The notes beneath the pieces are model-generated. The model searched no databases. It was not told where the DNA came from and saw nothing but the letters and a program-made list of their open reading frames with translations. Below, piece after piece: positions 68 through 13,578 of a stretch of 41,310 bases of DNA; positions within the stretch are counted from its first letter, which is position 1, and the number at the start of each line of letters is the position of its first letter. The position numbers and the translations under genes were made by a program. Source of the DNA: Rhizomicrobium sp. (lineage in GTDB: Bacteria; Pseudomonadota; Alphaproteobacteria; Micropepsales; Micropepsaceae); assembly GCA_031291635.1 (NCBI GenBank), contig JARLIR010000088.1, positions 1 through 41,310 on the forward strand, given 5' to 3'.

Positions 68-268
68 TTTTCTTCTCCGACCACATTACCCGCGATCACT
101 CTGCGTTCCGGTGGTGAAGAAAGTGTTGTCTAAATAGTCGAGTCAATAATTCGGTAAACAATTCCGCTAACGGTCGTGTCGCGTTTGAGACAACGAACGG
201 GGAGTTAAGTATTCTCGGCTAGTCTCACGCCACGCTATTCGAGCAATGCGGCCTTCGGAGTCATCTTC

Positions 269-1369
269 ATGTCGTCACCCGCCGCAACTACGGTTAATGC
301 AATCAACGTCAACACGCATGCGCGCCGGGAAATCGAAAGCATCCTCGCCGCGCATCAGGCGTTTGTGGACAACCGCCTTAACGGTCGGCGTGCGCAGCTG
401 ATGTCGCGCGATCTTTCGCGCTGGGATCTGTCGAGCCGCGTGCTCGCTGGCGCCGATCTTTCCGGCACAACTTTTTCCAATGCCAATCTCAAATTCGCCA
501 ATCTGTCGGGTGCTACGCTTTACTGCTGCGAGATGATCCGGGTCGATGCGCGCTGCGCCAATTTCTCCAACGCCGATATGCGCGGTGTTACCCTGCAAGG
601 CAGCAATCTGTCTCAATCACGCCTCGATAAGGCCGATTTCCGCGCCGGGCGTCTGATGAAGACGACCCCTGCGGGCAAGGAATCCATTGTTGACCGCAAC
701 AGCGTCGCGATGGGTGTCGATTTTTCCTATTGCTCCTTGAACGGCGCGACTTTTGAGGGCGCTGACCTCAATCAGGCCGATTTCACCGGTGCTGTGATCA
801 TCGGCACCAAATTCAAAGGCGCGCGCATGGCTGGCGCTGTGTTTGAAGGCGCCATCCTCAGTGATGTCGATCTCACTGAGATCAATTTGCCGCCAGAGGC
901 ATTGAAAGGCTGCATGTTGCCGCCAGGCGAAGCCGCGCTCAATCAACGCGGCGCTGTGCTCTTCCAGCTCAAATCGCATAACAGCTGGGTGGAGTCCGAT
1001 GGACGGCTGGGCACCGTTGCCGTTCTCGACGGAATGGATTTGCGTCCCGTGGGCCGGGCGATCGGACGCTTCAAGTTGACCGCCATATCGGCGCGCCGCG
1101 TGATTGCCGCGGGGATCGATTTTTCCTGTACCGAACTGCAAGGCGCCAATTTCGAAGGCGCCAATTTCGAAGGCGCCGATTTGCGTGGCGCAAGCTTTGA
1201 AGGCGCCGACCTGCGCGGCGTGCGCTTCAAAGGCGCCAAGCTGCATCATGCGCGCTTTCTCGGTGCCGACATGCGCCCCCTGGCGCTCAAGACCGGCGAA
1301 GTGCTGGCCTGCGATCTAACAGAGACAGGCTTTACCCCCGAGCAGCGCGCCGAAGCGGTGTTCGTCTAA
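269..1369 (+). CDS. pentapeptide-repeat protein (366 aa), paralogue 1
   Basis: Runs of A(D/N)LxG / FEGAxL pentapeptides (e.g. GANFEGANFEGADLRGASFEGADLRGVRFKGAKL). Confidence 0.9.
   Translation: MSSPAATTVNAINVNTHARREIESILAAHQAFVDNRLNGRRAQLMSRDLSRWDLSSRVLAGADLSGTTFSNANLKFANLSGATLYCCEMIRVDARCANFSNADMRGVTLQGSNLSQSRLDKADFRAGRLMKTTPAGKESIVDRNSVAMGVDFSYCSLNGATFEGADLNQADFTGAVIIGTKFKGARMAGAVFEGAILSDVDLTEINLPPEALKGCMLPPGEAALNQRGAVLFQLKSHNSWVESDGRLGTVAVLDGMDLRPVGRAIGRFKLTAISARRVIAAGIDFSCTELQGANFEGANFEGADLRGASFEGADLRGVRFKGAKLHHARFLGADMRPLALKTGEVLACDLTETGFTPEQRAEAVFV
1138..1242 (+). repeat. 15-bp tandem coding repeat (ggcgccaatttcgaa-type units) in pentapeptide gene 1
   Basis: caaggcgccaatttcgaaggcgccaatttcgaaggcgccgatttgcg... 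read directly. Confidence 0.8.
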
Positions 1370-1774
1370 CACCACCCCGTTCTGGGCCTGCGATGTGAAG
1401 ACTTGCCGCGGTTAGCCTGGGCTTTTTACCGCATCCTGTGGAAACTACGGACTTTCCTGCGGCGGAACATCCGTACGCGGAAGTCCCAGCTATCGATTCG
1501 GTAACCTTAAGGACATTCTCCTCCTGTGCTCAATCGAGGGGATCGGATGAAAAACGAAACGGCCATGGTGTTCGCACCGCCAGTACGTTTTTCGCCCTCG
1601 ACCGGGGCGCGCGCAGCCCCTCTCACGCTGCAATACGTCTTATAGCGCGTTAGCTTTTCGCGCCCTGCGCCGGACAGCCAATTCGCAACAATCGCTACTA
1701 TCGCCGCCCTCGGGCGGGAGTGCCAACACTGTCGCGTCGGCGGGCTGCGGTCCGCTGGCTTAAGGGATTGCGTC

Positions 1775-3430
1775 ATGCATAAAGCATTCGAGATCGCGAT
1801 GGGTGCCTATATCTACCTTCTGGGCGCCGTTTCTGGTTTGGGTCACTGGCTTGGTACGGATTCCGACCAATCCTACACCACCGCAGCGCTCGTGGTCTCC
1901 AGTGTGCTACTGGGCCTGTTCTGCTGCGTCTGGGCGATCATCACCCAGCTGCGCCACAAATCCTATCGCCAGGCGATGCGCGGCGCTCTGGCCCGTGCCC
2001 AAGCCGATATCCGCTTTCGCGAAACCATGATCTCGGCCTGCCCCGAAGCCATCGCGGTGCTCGGCACCGATATGAATGCCCCGCTCAGCTATCGCGGCGG
2101 TTCGGGTTTGCTGCAAGCCTGCCTGGAAGGCCCGGATGCGCCGGTATTGGCAGCCAAACTCGAAACCCTGCTCGCCAACGGCATGGCCTTCTCTCTTTTG
2201 GTCCGTACCTCTAGCTTTCCGCAAGTGGCCGTGCGCGGTGCCGCCGTGGGGTCCCGTGCGGCCGTCTTCTTTCGCATCGATAAAGATGCTGCCGAGCCGG
2301 AAGGCGATTTCTCCGCCGTGCTCGATGCCCTGCCCATCCCCGTGTGGATCCGCAATCGTCATCTGGTGCTGACTTGGGCCAACCGCGCCTTTCTGGCCGC
2401 TACCGGTTCGGCGACACTGCGCGAAGCCCTGTTGTCGGATGCGCATCTGGATCGTTCGGAACGTGATCTGGCCCGCGGCACCACAGAGGGTGGCGAAGTC
2501 GTGGCCGTGCGCCGCTTCGCCGTCATTCAAGGCGAGCGCCGGGCGCTCTCCATCGACATGCGCCGCCTGCGCGACAAATCCGTAGCGAGCTTTGCTCTCG
2601 ATCACACCGACATAGCCAAGGCGGAAGCCAAGCTGCAACTCGGCGTCGACGCCTTTGGTGCCGTTCTCAACACGCTGGATACGGCCGTGGCGATTTTTGG
2701 GACCGATCAGCGCCTGGCCACCTACAACAGCGCCTATGCACGGATGTGGAATCTGCCCGAACAATGGCTTGAGACCCACCCCAGCTTGAGCGATGTGCTC
2801 GACCGCTTGCGCGAAACGCGTCGCCTTCCCGAACAGCGCAACTTCGCCGCCTGGAAGCAAGAACACTTGGCGCAGTTCGATGCCGCCAATCACAATGTCA
2901 CCGAGACTTGGCACCTGCCGATGGGCATCAGCGTCGACGTCCGCTCCGTACCCTACCAGCTCGGCGGCGTGGTCTACCTGTTCCGCGACATCAGCGAGCG
3001 CCTGCGTAAAGAAGAGACCTATCAACTGCTGGTCAATTCGCAGCGCGCCGTGCTCGAGACCATTGCCGACGCCACCGCCATGTTTGGGCCGGATGGCCGT
3101 CTCAAGATCCACAACGAAGCTTTTGCCAAACTGTGGCAGCTTGAAGAAAATGAACTGAGCGGCGAGCCGCATTTATCCAAGGTCGCCGACCTCTGCGCCG
3201 ATCGCACCGGACGCGATGGCATCTGGAGCATGATCGCCGCTGGCGTCAACGCCCCAGATCCGGAACGCTTCGGCGAGTGGGGCCAGATCCGTCGCGCCGA
3301 TGGCCGCTGCCTGACCCTGTCGCTGGTGCGCCTGCCCGATGGCGCCACGTTGGTATCGTTCACCGATATGACTGACGTGCAGCGCTTCCAAAGCGTGCTG
3401 GCGGAAACCAAAGTGATCGCGGCGGCATAA
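1775..3430 (+). CDS. membrane-anchored multi-PAS (PAS_7-like) protein without C-terminal kinase/output domain
   Basis: Two N-terminal hydrophobic segments, then repeated PAS-like blocks (AVLNTLDTAVAIFGTDQRLATYNSAYARMW; AVLETIADATAMFGPDGRLKIHNEAFAKLW); ends ...FTDMTDVQRFQSVLAETKVIAAA*. Confidence 0.75.
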   Translation: MHKAFEIAMGAYIYLLGAVSGLGHWLGTDSDQSYTTAALVVSSVLLGLFCCVWAIITQLRHKSYRQAMRGALARAQADIRFRETMISACPEAIAVLGTDMNAPLSYRGGSGLLQACLEGPDAPVLAAKLETLLANGMAFSLLVRTSSFPQVAVRGAAVGSRAAVFFRIDKDAAEPEGDFSAVLDALPIPVWIRNRHLVLTWANRAFLAATGSATLREALLSDAHLDRSERDLARGTTEGGEVVAVRRFAVIQGERRALSIDMRRLRDKSVASFALDHTDIAKAEAKLQLGVDAFGAVLNTLDTAVAIFGTDQRLATYNSAYARMWNLPEQWLETHPSLSDVLDRLRETRRLPEQRNFAAWKQEHLAQFDAANHNVTETWHLPMGISVDVRSVPYQLGGVVYLFRDISERLRKEETYQLLVNSQRAVLETIADATAMFGPDGRLKIHNEAFAKLWQLEENELSGEPHLSKVADLCADRTGRDGIWSMIAAGVNAPDPERFGEWGQIRRADGRCLTLSLVRLPDGATLVSFTDMTDVQRFQSVLAETKVIAAA

Positions 3431-3463
3431 GGCCGGTTAGAACCTTTACAGCACCCCCTCTTC

Positions 3464-3493
3464 ATGGCCGGGCTCACCCCCGGCCATTTTTTT
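3464..3493 (+). terminator. Rho-independent terminator after the PAS gene
   Basis: ATGGCCGGG-ctcacc-CCCGGCCAT followed by T7. Confidence 0.85.
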
Positions 3494-3584
3494 GTGCCGT
3501 GCGTTAAAGCGTCAGAAGGAGGAAAACGCGGCGCGAGCCCGGCGCGGACGCGTCAGGGCTTCAACGACAGTGTGATTTGGGAAA

Positions 3585-4184
3585 TTAGTGGGCGCCCCAC
3601 CATTGCGCTACTTTGCGGTCGATGATCGACCCCAGGGACGCGGAGCGGAGCGGAACAGTGCTCGAGCCCAGCGTGGTGCGCAGACCGTAGTCGCGCATGG
3701 ACGCCAGCCAGCGCTGACGCTGCTCGAGCGGAAGCGACGAGACGCAACCGATCAGAACAGGTTCTTCAGCAATCAAGCCCGGCAGCTCCAGCATCAGCAT
3801 CTCTTTGCCACCAGGCCGCAGCATGCTGCGATAGGCGAAAGCCGGCATGTCCATGGTGACAATGACATGCGCCTTGCGGCTGGCGCCGGGCTGCGCCAAA
3901 TAAGAAAACAGCAGGTGCAAACCTTCCGGCGGCTGACCGAACCACAACGGATAGACGACTGCGAGCCGGTCGGCCCAAGCCATGTCGTCGACCATCGCCT
4001 TCGCGCTGTCGCCGCAACCGTGCTTGAGATCTTCCAGGGTGGTTTGCGAACAGGCGCCAACATCGAGGCGGCGTACTTGCCAGCCACCAGCCTCAGCGCC
4101 ACTTTGGTAGGCGGCGCTCAAACCTGCACAAAAACGTTCCATCCGAGGATCTGGATGACCGTTGATGATGAGCAATGTCTTCAT
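3585..4184 (-). CDS. NAD(P)H dehydrogenase (quinone)/flavodoxin-fold oxidoreductase
   Basis: MKTLLIINGHPDPRMERFCAGL... with ADRLAVVYPLWFGQPPEGLH; likely start at internal ATG 4184 rather than the 4346 ORF start. Confidence 0.8.
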   Translation of the reverse strand: MKTLLIINGHPDPRMERFCAGLSAAYQSGAEAGGWQVRRLDVGACSQTTLEDLKHGCGDSAKAMVDDMAWADRLAVVYPLWFGQPPEGLHLLFSYLAQPGASRKAHVIVTMDMPAFAYRSMLRPGGKEMLMLELPGLIAEEPVLIGCVSSLPLEQRQRWLASMRDYGLRTTLGSSTVPLRSASLGSIIDRKVAQWWGAH

Positions 4185-4213
4185 CCACAACCTTTCAGAT
4201 CGCCGCGCGAACG

Positions 4214-4609
4214 CTAGGCGGTCATTTTCTCCATCGGATAATTGTGGCGCTTCAACACTTTTCCTGCCGCGCAAAGCGATTGCACCCAGCGTAAAATGCG
4301 CAAGGGACTGCTTGTGCGCACGATGACGTCCATCACGCCTTCGCAATCCAGCGTGACGGGATCCACTTCGCGACCAGGATCGACGATCAAAAGTGCCGGT
4401 GTGGTGATGCCATAGCTACGAAAAAGACGCAGGGTGCGAAATCCGGCACCTTGCGGCATGTCGATGACCAAACAAACGGCGTGATCATAGATGTAGCCGT
4501 TGCTCGCATCGGGCGATTGCGGCGTCCACACTTGCAAGCCGCAACGCTCCAAGATCGAGCGCAACACATTTTCCGGGTTGCCCGAAATTAAACAAATTCC
4601 GAGAGCCAT
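4214..4609 (-). CDS. degenerate receiver-like (pseudo-response-regulator) protein
   Basis: MALGICLISGNPENVLRSILERCGLQVW...CLVIDMPQGAGFRTLRLFRSYGITTPALLIVD; receiver-like pattern but no acidic pair after strand 1. Confidence 0.5.
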   Translation of the reverse strand: MALGICLISGNPENVLRSILERCGLQVWTPQSPDASNGYIYDHAVCLVIDMPQGAGFRTLRLFRSYGITTPALLIVDPGREVDPVTLDCEGVMDVIVRTSSPLRILRWVQSLCAAGKVLKRHNYPMEKMTA

Positions 4610-4773
4610 CAACGCCCCCTGTTCGCTCCGCGCCGTCATGCTAGGGGATGCGCTACAGCCCAGTAAGATGGGGTTTTTGCCTATCTGCTGTTGTTGCAAT
4701 CTGCCACACACTCGCCACGCATTCGCCGCAGTGCACGGGTAAACCCCGCGCCATACACCTTCCCGTGTGTTTT

Positions 4774-4801
4774 ACATACGGTCAATTACGGTCGTGTATG
4801 T
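4774..4801. promoter_or_regulatory. candidate operator: TACGGTC direct repeat (10-bp period) inside an ACATAC...GTATGT dyad
   Basis: acatacggtcaattacggtcgtgtatgt read directly between divergent genes. Confidence 0.4.
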
Positions 4802-4850
4802 TTTCGCCTGCCGGTGTATTCCAAAGCACATCATCCGTCGAAGGACGTTC

Positions 4851-5468
4851 ATGAACAGCAACGCACCCATATGCATCGTCGATGACGATGACGATGTTAG
4901 AAATTCGCTACGCGTTCTTTTGGAAGCCGCGGATTTCCCCGTGAAAGATTATCCGTCCGCTGATGCGTTTCTCAGCGACGATGTTTTTTCCGCCTCGTGT
5001 TTGATTGCCGATGTTTGCATGCCCGGTATGGACGGCCTTGCGCTTCAACATGAAGTGTCGCGCCGCCGCCGGGACCTTCCGGTGGTGTTTTTGTCGGGCT
5101 TAGGCGAAGTGGGCGCTGCGGTACAGGCGATGAAGGCCGGTGCAGTCGACTTCCTCGAAAAGCCGCTCGACGGCGATGCTTTTCTGGCCTGCATCCGGCG
5201 CGCCCTGGCAAGAGGCGCTCACGATCGCACAGTGATCGCGCAAACCAAAACCGCGCGCCGCCTTATCGCCAGTCTCACACCACGTGAAGCCGATGTGATG
5301 GAGAAACTGGTGGACGGCCTGTCGAACAAAGCGGTCGCCCAGGACCTCGGCATTTCGCCGCGCACGGTGGAAGTCTATCGCGCCCAAATTATGAATAAGC
5401 TGAAAGCTGGAAACCTGTCCGACATCGTGCGCATCGCCATCGCTGCCAAAGCCGAAATCGCCCTATAA
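4851..5468 (+). CDS. FixJ/LuxR-family response regulator
   Basis: Receiver ICIVDDDDDVRNSLRVLLEA...ADVCMPGMDG...FLEKPLD plus HTH LTPREADVMEKLVDGLSNKAVAQDLGISPRTVEVYRAQIMNKL. Confidence 0.9.
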   Translation: MNSNAPICIVDDDDDVRNSLRVLLEAADFPVKDYPSADAFLSDDVFSASCLIADVCMPGMDGLALQHEVSRRRRDLPVVFLSGLGEVGAAVQAMKAGAVDFLEKPLDGDAFLACIRRALARGAHDRTVIAQTKTARRLIASLTPREADVMEKLVDGLSNKAVAQDLGISPRTVEVYRAQIMNKLKAGNLSDIVRIAIAAKAEIAL

Positions 5469-5537
5469 GTATAAATCGCAATGGGCGCGGAAACCGTTCC
5501 TTAGAGTGCCCACCGGATACTGTCCCAAACTCGGGGC

Positions 5538-6650
5538 ATGACCATGGCAGCAACGGTCGCACATGACGGGGTAAAGGGCGCCCGCGCCTTTTCACCGGAA
5601 GAGCTAGCAGACGTTCTGCGGGACCATGCGACCTATATGTCCCATTTGCAGGGTGGCAAGCGTGCGAATTTGCGCTTCGCCGACCTTCGACTCGCGAAAC
5701 TGGCCCATCGCGAGCTCTCGGACGCAGATCTTTCCGGCATCAATCTGCAAGGCGCGGATCTGAGCTATGCCGAATTCATCAGCGCCGACATCCAATGTTC
5801 CGATATCCGTCATGTCCAGGCGCGTTGCAGCAACTTTTCCCATGCCGATATGCGCGGCACGATTCTGAACGGCAGCAATTTCAATCGAGCAAAACTAGAC
5901 TACACCGATTTGCGACCAGGCCGCCTTCTCAAGATGAATCCAAGCGGCGTTGTCAAAGAAGTTCTCGAACGCTGCGGTTCTGCCGAGCACACTGATTTCA
6001 GCGAGTGCTCGCTCTTCGGTGCCTCTTTCGAAGGTGCCAAATTGCAAGGAGCCAGTTTTCGTGGCGCCATCATCCACGCCACGCGCTTTAAAAATGCAGT
6101 TCTTACAGGGACCGATTTCGAAGGGACCCTCTTAAGTTACGTAGTGCTGGACGATTTGCATCTCTCGGAAGCCGTACTCAAGACCTGTATCCTGGCACCG
6201 CCCACCGGCGATCCTGCCGCCGCACGGGTGCGCCTCACGCGTCTGCTCCAAGAGCACCAGCGTTGGATTGAGAGCGACTCACGTGCCGGACACTGCGCCG
6301 TTCTCGATGGCGAGGATTTGCGCTCATTGGGACAAAGCCTTAGCGGCTTTAAGCTCACTGCTGTTTCAGCGCGCCGTTGCATCGCCGTCGCAGCCAGCTT
6401 CGCTGGTGCAGAGCTGCAAGGCGCCAATTTCGAAGAGGCCGATCTGCGCGGTGCGAATTTCGAAGGCGCCGATCTGCGCGGTGTCCGTTTGCGCGGCGCC
6501 AAGCTGTCCCATGCCCGCTTCCGCAATGCCAATATCGGCAGTCTCCTGCTGCGCTCCGGAGAGCGTCTCGATTTCGATATCTTCCGCGCAGAGATCAATG
6601 AGGACCAGCTTTCCGAGGTCCGCGGCGCCAACACCACGCTTCACGGTTGA
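5538..6650 (+). CDS. pentapeptide-repeat protein (370 aa), paralogue 2
   Basis: ADLSGINLQGADLSYAEFISADI...GANFEEADLRGANFEGADLRGVRLRGAKL; same architecture as 269..1369. Confidence 0.9.
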   Translation: MTMAATVAHDGVKGARAFSPEELADVLRDHATYMSHLQGGKRANLRFADLRLAKLAHRELSDADLSGINLQGADLSYAEFISADIQCSDIRHVQARCSNFSHADMRGTILNGSNFNRAKLDYTDLRPGRLLKMNPSGVVKEVLERCGSAEHTDFSECSLFGASFEGAKLQGASFRGAIIHATRFKNAVLTGTDFEGTLLSYVVLDDLHLSEAVLKTCILAPPTGDPAAARVRLTRLLQEHQRWIESDSRAGHCAVLDGEDLRSLGQSLSGFKLTAVSARRCIAVAASFAGAELQGANFEEADLRGANFEGADLRGVRLRGAKLSHARFRNANIGSLLLRSGERLDFDIFRAEINEDQLSEVRGANTTLHG

Positions 6651-6914: not shown

Positions 6915-7304
6915 ATGTCGCCGAAAGCTGCCAACTCGATCGACGCCCATGTCGCGGGAAGGCTACGTACGTTTCGCCGTCAATTGGGCCTGTCCCAAGC
7001 CGACGTTGCCGCCAAACTTGGTGTCACCTTCCAACAGGTTCAAAAATACGAAGCCGGTATCAACCGGGTCGGCGCCGGCCGCCTGTTCCAGCTCGCCTGC
7101 CTCTACGGCATGCCGGTGCAGGAGTTCTTCCCGCGCGGGCTGGTAGCTGCCGACGCCGCCAAGCGCACCGCCAAATCCGAAGAGATCGCGGCCTTTGCTG
7201 TCAGCGCCGATGGTCTCAGGTTATGTGAGGCCTTCGTTAAAATCACAAACCCCAAGCAGCGCCGCGTCGTGCTCTCGCTGATCGAGGACATGACCGAGCG
7301 CTAA
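6915..7304 (+). CDS. XRE-family HTH transcriptional regulator
   Basis: VAGRLRTFRRQLGLSQADVAAKLGVTFQQVQKYEAGINRVGAGRLFQLACLYGMPV. Confidence 0.9.
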   Translation: MSPKAANSIDAHVAGRLRTFRRQLGLSQADVAAKLGVTFQQVQKYEAGINRVGAGRLFQLACLYGMPVQEFFPRGLVAADAAKRTAKSEEIAAFAVSADGLRLCEAFVKITNPKQRRVVLSLIEDMTER

Positions 7305-7343: not shown

Positions 7344-9281
7344 CTATTTTGCGCTCTGTATGGGCGGAAAAGTCCCAGCCCAAACGCTGTAGACGGCATT
7401 GGGATCGATAGCCCCCGTCGTCCAACTGGTGTTGCTGGCGTTCAACACGACCGCGGCTGCGCCCGTCTGATTGGTCGTGTAGGGCGTTTTCCAGATCGAA
7501 CCCGGATTGGTCGGGTTGGTGGCAAAAGCCGCCCAGGCCGCATTCACCGATGCCGCAAAGTTCTTGAGCTGTGGCGTCACCCGGCTGCTGAATTGCGACG
7601 GCACCACGATGCTCAGAGTATCGAACACATAAGGCAGCTCGCTGCCGTGACAGACGAAATTGCCGATATTGGGATCGCAGGCGCCGTTATCGATGTCGAC
7701 CCAGGTTCCGTTGACCTCACTGCCGTAGATGTCCATGACCGGCGCTTGATTGAAGTAATAGGCATAGGTCGCCGACACGCCGCCACTAGCGAGGGCGCTG
7801 TTCGCCATCACGACATTGCCGATCGAAAAGTCGTAATCGAGCACGACGTTGGATGCCACTTGGCCATAGCGGTTGTAGTAGGGCGCGTTAGGCTGATAAT
7901 CCGGCGGCGTGGTCTTCGACACTTTGTAGCGCGAATTCTGCTTGGCCAGGCTGCTGGCGGTGCCAAGCTTCTGGAAGCCACCATCGACCACCGCGCCGTA
8001 GACGAGCGCGGACGGGCTGTTGGCCGGTTTTTTGCCGACCTTAGCCGCCACCAGCGCCGCAAACACGGCCCCCTCGTCCTGATTGATGCCGAAGACGAAT
8101 GGCTTGGGCACCGTGCCGCTGGCATAGCCCTGATAAGGCTGCCCCGTGATGAAGCTGCCATCGATCACAGGCTGAAATGGCAACCCTCGCAGCCCCATAT
8201 ACCCAAGGGCGACGTCCGCCTTGCCGTTATTGCCGAGAAGAAAACTATTCTCGGCGCTAATGATGTCCGCCACCGGCGCGGTGAGCGGATTGAATTTGGG
8301 TTTGATAAGACAGGACTGTCCCGACAGCTTGCACAATGTGGTAAGATATTGGTTGCCGATCGCGCTCGGCCCCTTGTCGCCCACTTTGCTGTAGAGAAGC
8401 CCAACCGGGTTGCTCTCCATGATCGCGGCGTTGAAGAGCGTGGTGCTCGAGGGTATGGCGAAAAGGTGCAGGCCGACCGACATGGCCCCGGCACTCTCGC
8501 CAAAGATCGTAATCTTGCTCGGGTCGCCGCCGAAGGCGCTGATGTTGTCATGGACCCAATTGAGGGCCATCTGTTGATCGAGGATGCCGTAATTGCCGGT
8601 GGCCTTGGCACCGAATTTGTTGCCGACCAAAAAACCCAGCGCACCCAAACGATAGTTGAGTGTCACCAGGATGACTTTTTGGGAGGCAAAGGCGGCGCCG
8701 TTATAGACCGGCAGCGAACCAGCCCCGTCGAGGAAGGCGCCACCGTGGATGAACACCATCACCGGATAGGTATTGGCAGCGGGCGGCTGATTGTTCGGCG
8801 TGGGCGGAATCCAGACATTGAGGAATTGGCAGGTCTCCGCCATGTCCAAAATAGAGCCTTCGGGCGCTTTGGCTTGCGGGCAAATTGGCTTGAAGTTTGT
8901 CAGCGTCGTCTGCGCCGGAAGCTTGAACGCTTGAGGCGGTTGCCAACGCTCGGCGCTCGCATACTGAATGCCGGGATAAGCAACTCCGCTTGGTCCATTG
9001 GCACCATTGGCGATCACACCGCAAAGCTGCGCATTGCCGCCTGCAGTCCATTTCGGATTGGTTAGGCTGATGCAGATTGGTTGTGCGGGCGGTGAAAACG
9101 GATTGAACGCAGTCGGCGCAGCCGCGCGAAACAGATGCGAGCCCACTGGCTCGGCAAATTGCGCGGCTTGCACTGCTGTGGTGGATTTGGCGGATTTAAC
9201 GGCAGGCGTTGATTTTGCAGAGGCGGGAACAAGCAAGAGTAAACAGGCGGCAACTGCCGCCCTGAACCGGTGCGCTCTCAT
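7344..9281 (-). CDS. secreted type-B carboxylesterase/lipase family protein
   Basis: Signal peptide; YPVMVFIHGGAFLDGAGS; nucleophile motif FGESAGAMSVGLHL. Confidence 0.9.
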   Translation of the reverse strand: MRAHRFRAAVAACLLLLVPASAKSTPAVKSAKSTTAVQAAQFAEPVGSHLFRAAAPTAFNPFSPPAQPICISLTNPKWTAGGNAQLCGVIANGANGPSGVAYPGIQYASAERWQPPQAFKLPAQTTLTNFKPICPQAKAPEGSILDMAETCQFLNVWIPPTPNNQPPAANTYPVMVFIHGGAFLDGAGSLPVYNGAAFASQKVILVTLNYRLGALGFLVGNKFGAKATGNYGILDQQMALNWVHDNISAFGGDPSKITIFGESAGAMSVGLHLFAIPSSTTLFNAAIMESNPVGLLYSKVGDKGPSAIGNQYLTTLCKLSGQSCLIKPKFNPLTAPVADIISAENSFLLGNNGKADVALGYMGLRGLPFQPVIDGSFITGQPYQGYASGTVPKPFVFGINQDEGAVFAALVAAKVGKKPANSPSALVYGAVVDGGFQKLGTASSLAKQNSRYKVSKTTPPDYQPNAPYYNRYGQVASNVVLDYDFSIGNVVMANSALASGGVSATYAYYFNQAPVMDIYGSEVNGTWVDIDNGACDPNIGNFVCHGSELPYVFDTLSIVVPSQFSSRVTPQLKNFAASVNAAWAAFATNPTNPGSIWKTPYTTNQTGAAAVVLNASNTSWTTGAIDPNAVYSVWAGTFPPIQSAK

Positions 9282-9515: not shown

Positions 9516-9875
9516 TTAGTCCGACGGCATCATCCCGGGCATCATGTTCATGTTGAGATGATACATGATCCACAGCGAGCCCAGCAGCAGTATGCCGACG
9601 ATCACCAAGGTGAAGACAAAGGCGGCGTTGTTCCAGAGCTGACCGGAGCTGGCGTTCATGTGCAGGAAGAACACCAGATGCACGACGATCTGCACCAGCC
9701 CTAAGCCGACCACCACGGGGATGACAGCGGCGGCGGGCATAACATGGCTCATCACCAGGCCGAAGGGGATCGCCGTCAGGATCACGGCCAGCGCGAAACC
9801 GATGAGATAGGACTTCACCGAGCCATGACCGGCGCTGGCGTCGTCATGCGGGGGATGTTGCACAGGCGCGTTCAT
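9516..9875 (-). CDS. cyoD: cytochrome o ubiquinol oxidase subunit IV
   Basis: SVKSYLIGFALAVILTAIPFGLV...VVHLVFFLHMNASSGQLWN; follows cyoC. Confidence 0.92.
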   Translation of the reverse strand: MNAPVQHPPHDDASAGHGSVKSYLIGFALAVILTAIPFGLVMSHVMPAAAVIPVVVGLGLVQIVVHLVFFLHMNASSGQLWNNAAFVFTLVIVGILLLGSLWIMYHLNMNMMPGMMPSD

Positions 9876-10501
9876 CAGGCGGCTCCCATCAGATAGACGA
9901 TGCTGAAAACCCCGATCCAGATGATGTCGAGGAAATGCCAGAACAGGCTGAGCAACAAAAGCCGCGTCTGATTGATTTCATTCAGGCCGCGCCGGGCCAG
10001 ATGGGCGAACATCACGCCCATCCAGATCAGGCCCGCGGTGACGTGCAAGCCGTGCGTTCCCACCAAGGTGAAGAAACCGGAGAGGAAAGCGGACCGGCCC
10101 GGCCCTGCCCCTTCGGCGATCAGCTTGGCAAACTCGTTGATTTCCATGCCGATGAAGCCGAGGCCGAGCAGAAAGGTCAGCGCCAACCAGCCATAGACAC
10201 TTTGCAGCTTGTTCTGGCTGACGGCGATCATGGCGAGACCATAGGTCAGGCTTGAGATCAGCAGCAGCGCAGTTTCGATGGCGACGTAGTTCAGCTCGAA
10301 GAGCTCGCGCCCATTCGGTCCGCCCGCCAGATTGCCGCGCAGCACGGCAAAACCCGCGAACACGGACGCGAACAGAATGCAGTCGCTCATCAGATAGATC
10401 CAGAAACCGAGCGGCGCTTTGCCGGCTTCCGAATGGGCTTCACCGTGACTGTCGCCGTGACCGACGAGGGTGCCGTCAAGCGGCGCGGTGTGTATGTTCA
10501 T
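9875..10501 (-). CDS. cyoC: cytochrome o ubiquinol oxidase subunit III
   Basis: [24 protein letters not shown]...[15 protein letters not shown]...[18 protein letters not shown]. Confidence 0.95.
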
Positions 10502-12503
10502 CGGTCTTCTCCGGCAGTTGCAGGAAATGTTCGCTTTCTAGACGCGCGATTTCGCCCGGCGGCACGTAGTAATCGCGCTCCTCATTGAAGCTGTGCCAGA
10601 TGGCCAGCCCCAACATGACGAGAAGGGTTGCAATCACCAGCCACCAAATATGCCAGGTGAGCGCAAAGCCCAGCCCAATGGACAGCACGCCGAGGATAAC
10701 GCCAGTGCCGGTATTCCGCGGCATGTGGATGCGCTGATATTGCGGCTGCAGCGTCGGCACCGTGCCGGACTGTTTCATCTCCCAGAAGGCATCGATGGTG
10801 TGCACGTGCGGCACGCGGGCGAAATTGTAGAAAGGCGGCGGTGACGAGGTCGCCCATTCCAAGGTGCGCCCGCCCCAGGGATCGCCAGTACGGTCGCGCA
10901 GCTTCTCGCGATTGACGATGCTGACGATGATCTGCGCCACGGTCGATAGAATGCCGATACAAACCAGCCCGGCGCCGATAGCGGCCACGATCAGATAGAT
11001 GTGCCAGACCGGATTGTTCACATGGTCGAGGCGGCGGGTCATGCCCATCAGGCCGAGCGCGTAGAGTGGCATGAAGGCGAGATAGAAGCCCACCAGCCAG
11101 CACCAGAACGAGACCTTGCCAAGGCGGGGTTCGAGCTTGATGCCGGTCGCCTTGGGGAACCAATAGGTGAAGCCCGCCATGACGCCGAAGACCACGCCGC
11201 CGATGATGGTGTTGTGGAAATGAGCGACCAGGAAGAGCGAATTGTGCAGCACGAAATCGGCACCCGGAACGGCCAGCAAGACGCCGGTCATACCGCCGAT
11301 GGCGAAGGTGACAATGAAGCCCAGCGTCCACATCACCGGCACGTCTATCCGCACGCGGCCGCGATACATCGTGAACAGCCAATTGAAGATCTTCACGCCC
11401 GTCGGGATGGAGATGATCATGGTGGTGATGCCGAAGAAGGCATTCACATTGGCGCCCGAGCCCATGGTGAAGAAGTGATGCAGCCAGACGACGAAGCTGA
11501 GCACCGTGATGCAGACCGTGGCGTAGACCATCGAGGTGTAGCCGAACAACGGCTTGCCCGAGAAGGTGGCCGTTATCTCGGAATAAATCCCAAAGCACGG
11601 CAGGATGAGAATGTACACCTCGGGATGGCCCCAAGCCCAGATGAGGTTGACGTACATCATCGGGTTGCCGCCGCCGTCATGCGTGAAGAAATGCATGCCG
11701 AGATAACGATCGAGACCCAGCATCGCCAGCGTCACGGTGAGGATCGGAAAGGCGGCGACAATCAGCATGTTGGCGCAGAGCGTGGTCCAGGTGAAGACCG
11801 GCATCTGCATCAAGCCCATACCGGGGGCACGCATTTTCAGGATGGTGACGATCAGATTGACGCCGGAGAGTAAGGTGCCAACGCCGGATATCTGGATCGC
11901 CCAAATATAGTAATCGACACCGACGCCCGGCGAGAAGGCCAGTTCTGACAGCGGCGGATAAGCCAGCCAACCGACATGGGCGAACTCGCCCACGGCCAGC
12001 GAGATATTGACCAGCATGGCGCCGGCCACCGTCAGCCAGAAGCTGAGCGAATTCAGATAGGGAAAGGCGACGTCACGCGCGCCGATCTGCAGCGGCATGG
12101 CGATGTTCATCAAGCCGATGACAAAGGGCATGGCCATGAAGAAAATCATGATCACGCCATGGGCCGTGAAGATTTGGTCGAAATGATCGGGCGGCAGATA
12201 GCCCGCGGCGCCCGCCGAGGCCATCGCCTGCTGGCCGCGCATCAACAACGCATCCGAGAAGCCGCGCAGCAGCATCACCAGCGCCAAGATGATGTACATC
12301 ATGCCGATCTTCTTGTGATCGACACTGGTCAGCCATTCATCCCACAACCATTTCCAGCGGCCGAGATAGGTCAAAACCACCAAAACGCTCAGGCCCGCCA
12401 CCACCATGCCAGCGACGGCGCCCATGATGATGGGTTCGTTGAGCGGCAGGGCGTCCATGGTCAATCGGCCGACCATCATTGTTTGTATATCGCCTGCGGT
12501 CAT
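10476..12503 (-). CDS. cyoB: cytochrome o ubiquinol oxidase subunit I
   Basis: [66 protein letters not shown]. Confidence 0.97.
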
Positions 12504-12507
12504 GGCG

Positions 12508-13578
12508 TCAACCTTTGGTGTTTGGATTGATGGTTTTAGCGGGATCGAGGCAGAGCGGCTTGCCGGGCGATTGATCTTTCATCGCGGCCATGGTGACCGC
12601 ATCGTCCGTACACACACCACCTTCGGCGCAGCGATTGAGGATGCGGTAATACAGGCCATCCCCGACTTTGCCATATTGGGTGACGGCGTGGGTGCCGCGC
12701 GTCATCAGCTTGATATAAGCGGGCTGATCCAGCACCCCGCCTTGCTTGGCTGTCGCCACCCAGGCTTTGAAGGCGGCGCCGTCCATCGCCTTGGCGACGA
12801 AATGCATATCGGCAAAGCCGTGACCGGAATAATTCGCCGACATGCCTTCAAATTCGCCGGCGTGGTCGGCTTTCAGATTCAGCACCGATTGCATCCCCGG
12901 CATGGTGTAAACCTGCGTGCCGAGCTGGGGGATGAAGAAGGCATTCATCACACCCGAAGAGGTCAACTTGAAATGCACGGTGCGGCCCGCCGGGATCACC
13001 AACTCATTGACCGAAGCGACGCCGTATTCGGGATAGATAAAGAGCCACTTCCAATCCAGCGAGACGACCTGGACTTCCAGCGGCTTACCGTTCGAGGCGA
13101 TGGGCTGGCGCGGATCGAGCGTGTGGGTGGTGATCCACGTCACCGTGCCGAGAATGAGAATGATAATACAGGGGATTGTCCACACCACGACTTCGATGGC
13201 AGTAGAATGGCTCCAATTGGGGGCATAGACAGCCTTGGTGTTGGAAGCGCGATAGCGCCAAGCAAAAGCCAGCGTCATCACAATGACCGGCACCACCACC
13301 AGCAGCATGAGGCCGACAGCGAGCAGGATAAGATTCTTCTCGCCCTCGCCGACCGGACCTTTGGGGTCCATCACGGCCCATTCACAACCGCTGAGGAAAA
13401 CCGAGGCGAGCGCCAAAAGCCCAACGCGAGAAACCAGCTTGGCCTTACCGGCCCAATCAAAACACTGCACGCACAAAGCTCCCAACCCATGACTGGCCAA
13501 CGCAACCACCGGCCATGAACGTGACCGCGTGAATATCGAACAGGCAAAACCATCCCAAGCTATAGGCACGCTGCCCAA
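12508..13578 (-). CDS. cyoA: cytochrome o ubiquinol oxidase subunit II (lipoprotein); true start may be internal
   Basis: Lipobox-like [14 protein letters not shown]; ...[26 protein letters not shown]...; precedes cyoB. Confidence 0.92.

Follow-up and report, generated by a model that had tools for sequence, protein, structure and literature searches.

What pathway is encoded by the regulatory genes at the start of contig JARLIR010000088.1 of Rhizomicrobium sp. (assembly GCA_031291635.1), and do the two pentapeptide-repeat genes that bracket them take part in it? The contig (C202), analysed over its whole length of 41,310 nucleotides and referred to below as the window, belongs to an assembly that is 82% complete and totals 3.5 Mb over 267 contigs (genome G000); its proteins suggest an alphaproteobacterium. 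In order, it carries the pentapeptide gene penta1, a gene for a PAS-only protein, a flavodoxin-fold reductase and a degenerate receiver (pREC), both on the minus strand, an orphan FixJ-type regulator, penta2, and a helix-turn-helix (HTH) regulator. The original prediction had proposed a redox- or stress-responsive module with the pentapeptide proteins as its outputs or partners, and all seven of its genes were confirmed in position. Comparison with 36 other genomes of the genus (37 in total; the relatives are draft assemblies, with genes called by a simple caller based on open reading frames) revealed that the signalling genes form a genuine module that is conserved, and that the pentapeptide genes are optional neighbours gathered in one small clade. 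The best explanation, to which we give about an even chance, is that the locus represents a reduced and rearranged oxygen/redox regulatory cluster of the FixLJ-FixK type, equipped with a kinase-less paralogue of DivL. All comparable genes of the locus are under purifying selection, with ratios of nonsynonymous to synonymous substitution rates (dN/dS) of 0.07-0.30.

The neighbourhood of the PAS-only gene was compared in the 14 genomes of the genus that carry it within enough readable context. A Crp/FixK gene adjoins it in 11 of the 14 loci, and in 10, at several different sites, a FixJ gene is found at most about 6 kb away; a flavodoxin-fold reductase gene stands beside it in seven, a FixL gene in five, and pentapeptide genes of the 370-amino acid type in three. 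All five module genes are consecutive in G013 (FixL-FixJ-Crp-PAS-reductase) and in G002 (Crp-PAS-reductase-FixL-FixJ); at about four FixJ-type genes per genome, we estimate that chance would produce well under one such linkage among fourteen loci. The FixL beside the PAS-only gene of G027 aligns with heme-PAS FixL structures and keeps the heme histidine. The conserved neighbourhood shows that the ancestral set of the genus comprised FixL, FixJ, FixK, a kinase-less DivL-related membrane PAS array and a flavodoxin-fold reductase, which supports the redox or stress signalling half of the original prediction. The neighbourhood check proposed with that prediction came out in favour of the signalling genes, which co-occur, whereas the pentapeptide genes are mostly unlinked. 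The FixL (heme PAS), FixJ, FixK-type Crp and single-domain receivers of alphaproteobacterial FixLJ-FixK(-FixT) systems all have counterparts in or beside the ancestral genus cluster, which differs from those systems by the addition of the kinase-less DivL paralogue and the reductase; the window differs further by the lack of FixL and FixK. The window reductase (3588..4196, minus strand; Flavodoxin_2, 9e-11) is of the NAD(P)H/quinone type.

The PAS-only protein (1775..3430, plus strand; 551 amino acids) is a membrane-anchored PAS array with PAS_7/PAS_8 matches, one strongly hydrophobic segment (residues 38-56) and neither HisKA nor HATPase among its Pfam matches. Its residues ~35-545 are homologous to the N-terminal two thirds of ~820-amino acid proteins present in nearly every member of the genus, several of which show the motif SYELRTPL, where tyrosine occupies the phosphoacceptor site in place of histidine, as is characteristic of DivL. 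In the phylogenetic tree the two forms are clearly separated (support for the PAS-only clade 100/99). Judged from its sequence, the absence of the kinase part, the tyrosine motif of its homologues and the tree, the protein is a kinase-less paralogue of DivL, and not DivL itself. Both have an N-terminal transmembrane segment and a PAS array, with homology over about 510 residues, but the DHp and CA domains, which form the docking module of DivL for DivK~P (PMC4211667), are missing from the PAS-only protein. In 24 genomes of other families, PAS matches fell in frames of 560 amino acids or more, most of them over 700.

The FixJ-type response regulator (4851..5468, plus strand; Response_reg 4.5e-21, GerE 7e-21) retains the residues of phosphorylation intact (DDD, the D of LIADVCMP and the K of LEKP). 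Its score against the NCBIfam FixJ model, 222.6 bits, lies below the curated cut-off of 255, which makes it FixJ-type rather than FixJ proper. Orthologues occupy the same site in G010, G007, G019 and G032 (clade support 100/99). No cognate FixL adjoins the regulator at the window site; G000 encodes a paired FixL on contig C261, in a FixL-FixJ-receiver set, and an orphan FixL on contig C167. The C261 FixL and its counterparts in the four other genomes have tyrosine in place of the heme histidine of FixL structures. The heme-histidine region of the C167 FixL (L147:6257-7414, minus strand) is intact (QHDDY...IGREV), and a heme-type FixL without FixJ or FixK beside it is present in all five genomes (G000, G010, G019, G007 and G032). 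In G027 the counterpart of this kinase is followed by FixJ and FixK. Because the orphan kinase and the orphan regulator occur in the same five genomes, their distribution suggests that they may be a pair working in trans. The C167 FixL also adjoins an open frame of ~917 amino acids that is itself FixL-like.

The degenerate single-domain receiver pREC (4214..4609, minus strand) has no Pfam match and lacks the acidic pair and the lysine of receivers. AlphaFold2 gave a receiver-like fold of moderate confidence (predicted local distance difference test, pLDDT, 72.5; three sequences), and its best Foldseek matches were receiver domains, including FixJ-N (TM-score 0.67/0.71). Profile comparison with hhalign against the single-domain receiver beside FixLJ in G027 gave 85% probability (E 5.6e-6, 37 columns); an origin by duplication of the receiver domain of FixJ itself was ruled out (hhalign 0.8%). 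FixT, which inhibits FixL and consists of a single receiver domain, is also devoid of the acidic pair (PMC7078487, PMC9430884). It is the closest working model for pREC: like the FixT/Osp inhibitors, pREC is a single receiver domain without the acidic pair, and its relatives adjoin FixLJ. It is very diverged, however, and lacks the strict four-cysteine motif that is unique to Caulobacter FixT (PMC7078487): cysteines 6, 23 and 46 are invariant in three orthologues and the other cysteines vary, which does not match the Caulobacter-type Fe-S motif.

No intact FixK (Crp/Fnr) gene is found in the window; what persists is its promoter region. The gap between penta1 and the PAS-only gene (1370-1774) contains a 37 bp block (1470..1506, plus strand) that is 84-92% identical to the block just upstream of crp in G019 and G032, where the gene is intact, and to a block of G007 that precedes a crp remnant. 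The fixK promoter has thus outlasted its gene in both G000 and G007, and in the window it now stands before the PAS-only gene. In G027 and G028 crp is preceded by similar promoters with weaker matches, and in G002, G013, G034 and G023 by looser ones. The form of the block suggests kinship with fixK promoters that depend on FixJ, for which the sites TAAGTAATTTCCCTTA and GTAMGTAG have been described (PMC4999443). Since the crp-type promoters resemble these sites only partly, FixJ may control the crp/PAS promoter, as we infer from that resemblance. The divergent promoter region between pREC and FixJ (4610..4850, no strand assigned) is ~80% conserved, in G010 only. A ACATACGGTC repeat before FixJ was considered as a regulatory site and dropped, being either without clear excess over shuffles or not conserved.

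The five genomes share one site, with a TetR-Sel1 gene on one side, an XRE-type regulator on the other and a cyo quinol oxidase operon nearby. In G032 the order is penta1, Crp, PAS, reductase and pREC (both minus strand), FixJ, a LysR-type gene and HTH, and in G019, where the site is spread over two contigs with the break inside the PAS gene, it is penta1, Crp, PAS, pREC (minus strand), FixJ, penta2 and the start of HTH. G010 retains penta1, a PAS scar, FixJ, HTH, an esterase gene and cyo; G007 retains PAS, FixJ, HTH and cyo, and has no pentapeptide gene there. Gene order and orientation thus recur in G032 and G019, and partly in G010 and G007, beyond what chance would give. G010 is the closest relative of the window (penta1 82%, HTH 91%) and lacks PAS, reductase, pREC and penta2; its PAS scar matches window positions 3026-3170 at 81%. 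This scar, together with dN/dS values of 0.13 and 0.17 for penta1 and FixJ, respectively, indicates that PAS was lost and that penta1 and FixJ were kept under selection. Losses were stepwise, as the PAS scar of G010 and the N-terminal crp remnant of G007 attest.

The constant neighbour of the site is the XRE-type HTH regulator (6915..7304, plus strand), found in G010, G007 and G032 and with its start seen in G019. The cyo-type quinol oxidase operon (9516..13578, minus strand; COX1 1e-145, COX2 and COX_ARM) borders the site in the window and also in G010, G032 and G007. Between the HTH gene and the operon lies a large type-B carboxylesterase gene (7344-9281, minus strand; COesterase 1e-76), common, among the compared genomes, to the window and G010. 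The TetR-Sel1 gene could be identified in four of the five genomes and is expected off the contig in the window; it encodes an unusual protein with TetR_N, Sel1 repeats and a hydrophobic stretch (L056:738-2270; also L054, L057 and L083), divergent from penta1. A conserved non-coding element of ~60 bp (GGTGAAGAAAGTnTTnnCTAAAn..ATCGAGT..CGGTAAACAATT; 113..175, no strand assigned) lies upstream of penta1, in a single copy each in G000, G010, G019 and G032, and is present in G007 too. It was ruled out as a pentapeptide regulatory element, since G007 keeps both the element and the TetR-Sel1 gene without penta1; most likely it belongs with TetR-Sel1, which is divergently oriented and would lie just beyond the contig end.

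The two pentapeptide-repeat proteins, penta1 (269..1369, plus strand; 366 amino acids, Pfam Pentapeptide 2e-51) and penta2 (5538..6650, plus strand; 370 amino acids, Pfam 3e-43), are paralogues with 44% identity and, as originally predicted, of the same layout: a beta-helix, a helical linker with an H-x-x-W cap motif, and a second beta-helix. The AlphaFold2 model of penta2 (pLDDT 92) shows two beta-helices joined by the helical linker. No transmembrane segment was found in either protein, and no signal peptide was seen in penta1. They fall into different sub-clades, each with relatives elsewhere, and so do not represent a fresh local duplication; a third full-length paralogue is encoded on contig C260 of G000. 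A diverged relative of ~435 amino acids on contig C132 (L038:5465-6760, minus strand) occurs in nearly all members of the genus and is syntenic with a gene for a probable surface protein of 1100-1250 amino acids and an alpha/beta-hydrolase-like gene.

That these proteins serve specifically as outputs or partners of the system formed by PAS, pseudo-receiver and FixJ appears unlikely, although several observations favour it. Orthologues of penta1 occur at the same site in G010 (82%), G019 and G032 (dN/dS 0.13-0.26), always together with FixJ, and this pairing is kept under purifying selection in all four penta1-bearing genomes. The 69 bp between FixJ and penta2, confirmed in the window, and the close spacing in G019, the only other genome with a penta2 orthologue in this position, give the two genes the look of one operon in both genomes, and they are probably co-transcribed. 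A link between pentapeptide genes and signalling is supported solely by this spacing and by the constant association of penta1 with FixJ. Across the 37 genomes, co-occurrence of PAS-only and pentapeptide genes (8/6/5/18) gave a one-sided Fisher p of 0.034, uncorrected for relatedness. The 370-amino acid family (E below about 1e-46), however, counts 29 copies in 13 of the 37 genomes, at several unrelated sites, and only six copies have PAS or FixJ in their vicinity; these six share this one site through common descent. The other 23 are unlinked, the very dispersal that the original prediction had named as counting against itself. In G027, G028 and G022 pentapeptide genes adjoin mutL, named from sequence and not by a family scan; in G027 and G028 (L058, L059) they form a tandem pair beside this probable mutL. 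At the site itself, G007 and G010 uncouple the genes, the former having PAS and FixJ without a pentapeptide gene and the latter penta1 and FixJ without PAS, reductase, pREC and penta2; a LysR-type gene replaces penta2 in G032, the element before penta1 lies on the TetR-Sel1 side, and the PAS gene has its own promoter. The predicted role as outputs or partners is weakly supported, with the unlinked copies and the uncoupled sites speaking against it. Far less probable still is DNA mimicry of the Qnr/MfpA type, with gyrase protection under stress control. The right-handed beta-helix repeats are common to HetL, Qnr, MfpA and the window proteins, and local Foldseek matches to QnrB1 and MfpA were obtained, but the best family scores are far below cut-offs (Qnr 69.8 against 240, MfpA 58.8 against 360) and whole-chain TM-scores by query are 0.11-0.30. 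In contrast to the known proteins, with no family cut-off reached, penta1 and penta2 each have two beta-helix domains with a helical insert and cap (H-x-x-W in the central one), and they are nearly neutral in net charge (+0.9 and -2.4), with isoelectric points of 7.6 and 6.5.

A more plausible alternative, though still one we consider distinctly less probable than a reduced FixLJ-FixK-type cluster, is passive accretion of unrelated single genes in a region next to the cyo operon that readily gains genes, with only Crp-PAS(-reductase) functional together. The high turnover at the site, where penta1, penta2, LysR-type, reductase, pREC and Crp genes were gained or lost among five close genomes, agrees with it; the recurrence of FixJ near PAS at several different sites and the retained order and orientation in G000, G019 and G032 do not.

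In the window cluster FixL is absent and FixK deleted, which leaves the fixK promoter directly before the PAS-only gene. Under the reading of a reduced FixLJ-FixK-type cluster, FixJ would be phosphorylated in trans, with the C167 orphan heme-type FixL as the best candidate, or be active unphosphorylated, and may drive the operon that it forms with penta2, and perhaps the PAS promoter too. The PAS-only protein would act as a membrane-bound, non-catalytic adaptor sensing a redox ligand or a partner, the reductase would belong to its pathway, and the degenerate receiver would restrain a FixL-type kinase in the manner of FixT. The pentapeptide proteins would be cytoplasmic beta-helix scaffolds, late arrivals at the site in one clade, with at most a putative part in signalling. 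Several points weigh against this reading. FixJ boxes are not recognisable in the FixJ or pentapeptide promoters, with no clear excess over shuffles, and no FixK box was found before the cyo operon. In the FixJ tree, the branch uniting the window clade with the PAS-linked FixJ of G027/G028 is weakly supported (59/82), and the likeness of pREC to FixT comes from architecture and a short profile match to a single-domain receiver beside FixLJ. Finally, FixK or a further FixL could sit on contigs missing from the incomplete window genome.

A bolder extension, which seems improbable at present, is that the kinase-less DivL paralogue has taken a permanent place at the membrane in oxygen signalling by FixLJ-FixK. 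In one clade it would have outlived the FixL and FixK of the cluster and would now gate a FixL/FixJ pair split between two distant sites, with beta-helix proteins as a further output and a FixT-like receiver as the brake. The locus connects DivL, a pseudokinase family of the cell cycle, with FixLJ-FixK oxygen signalling, and no description of such a connection was found in the literature searched. The five close genomes show such a cluster coming apart one gene at a time, leaving behind a promoter, the scar of a gene and both halves of a two-component pair as orphans, so that the rewiring of a signalling pair becomes directly testable.

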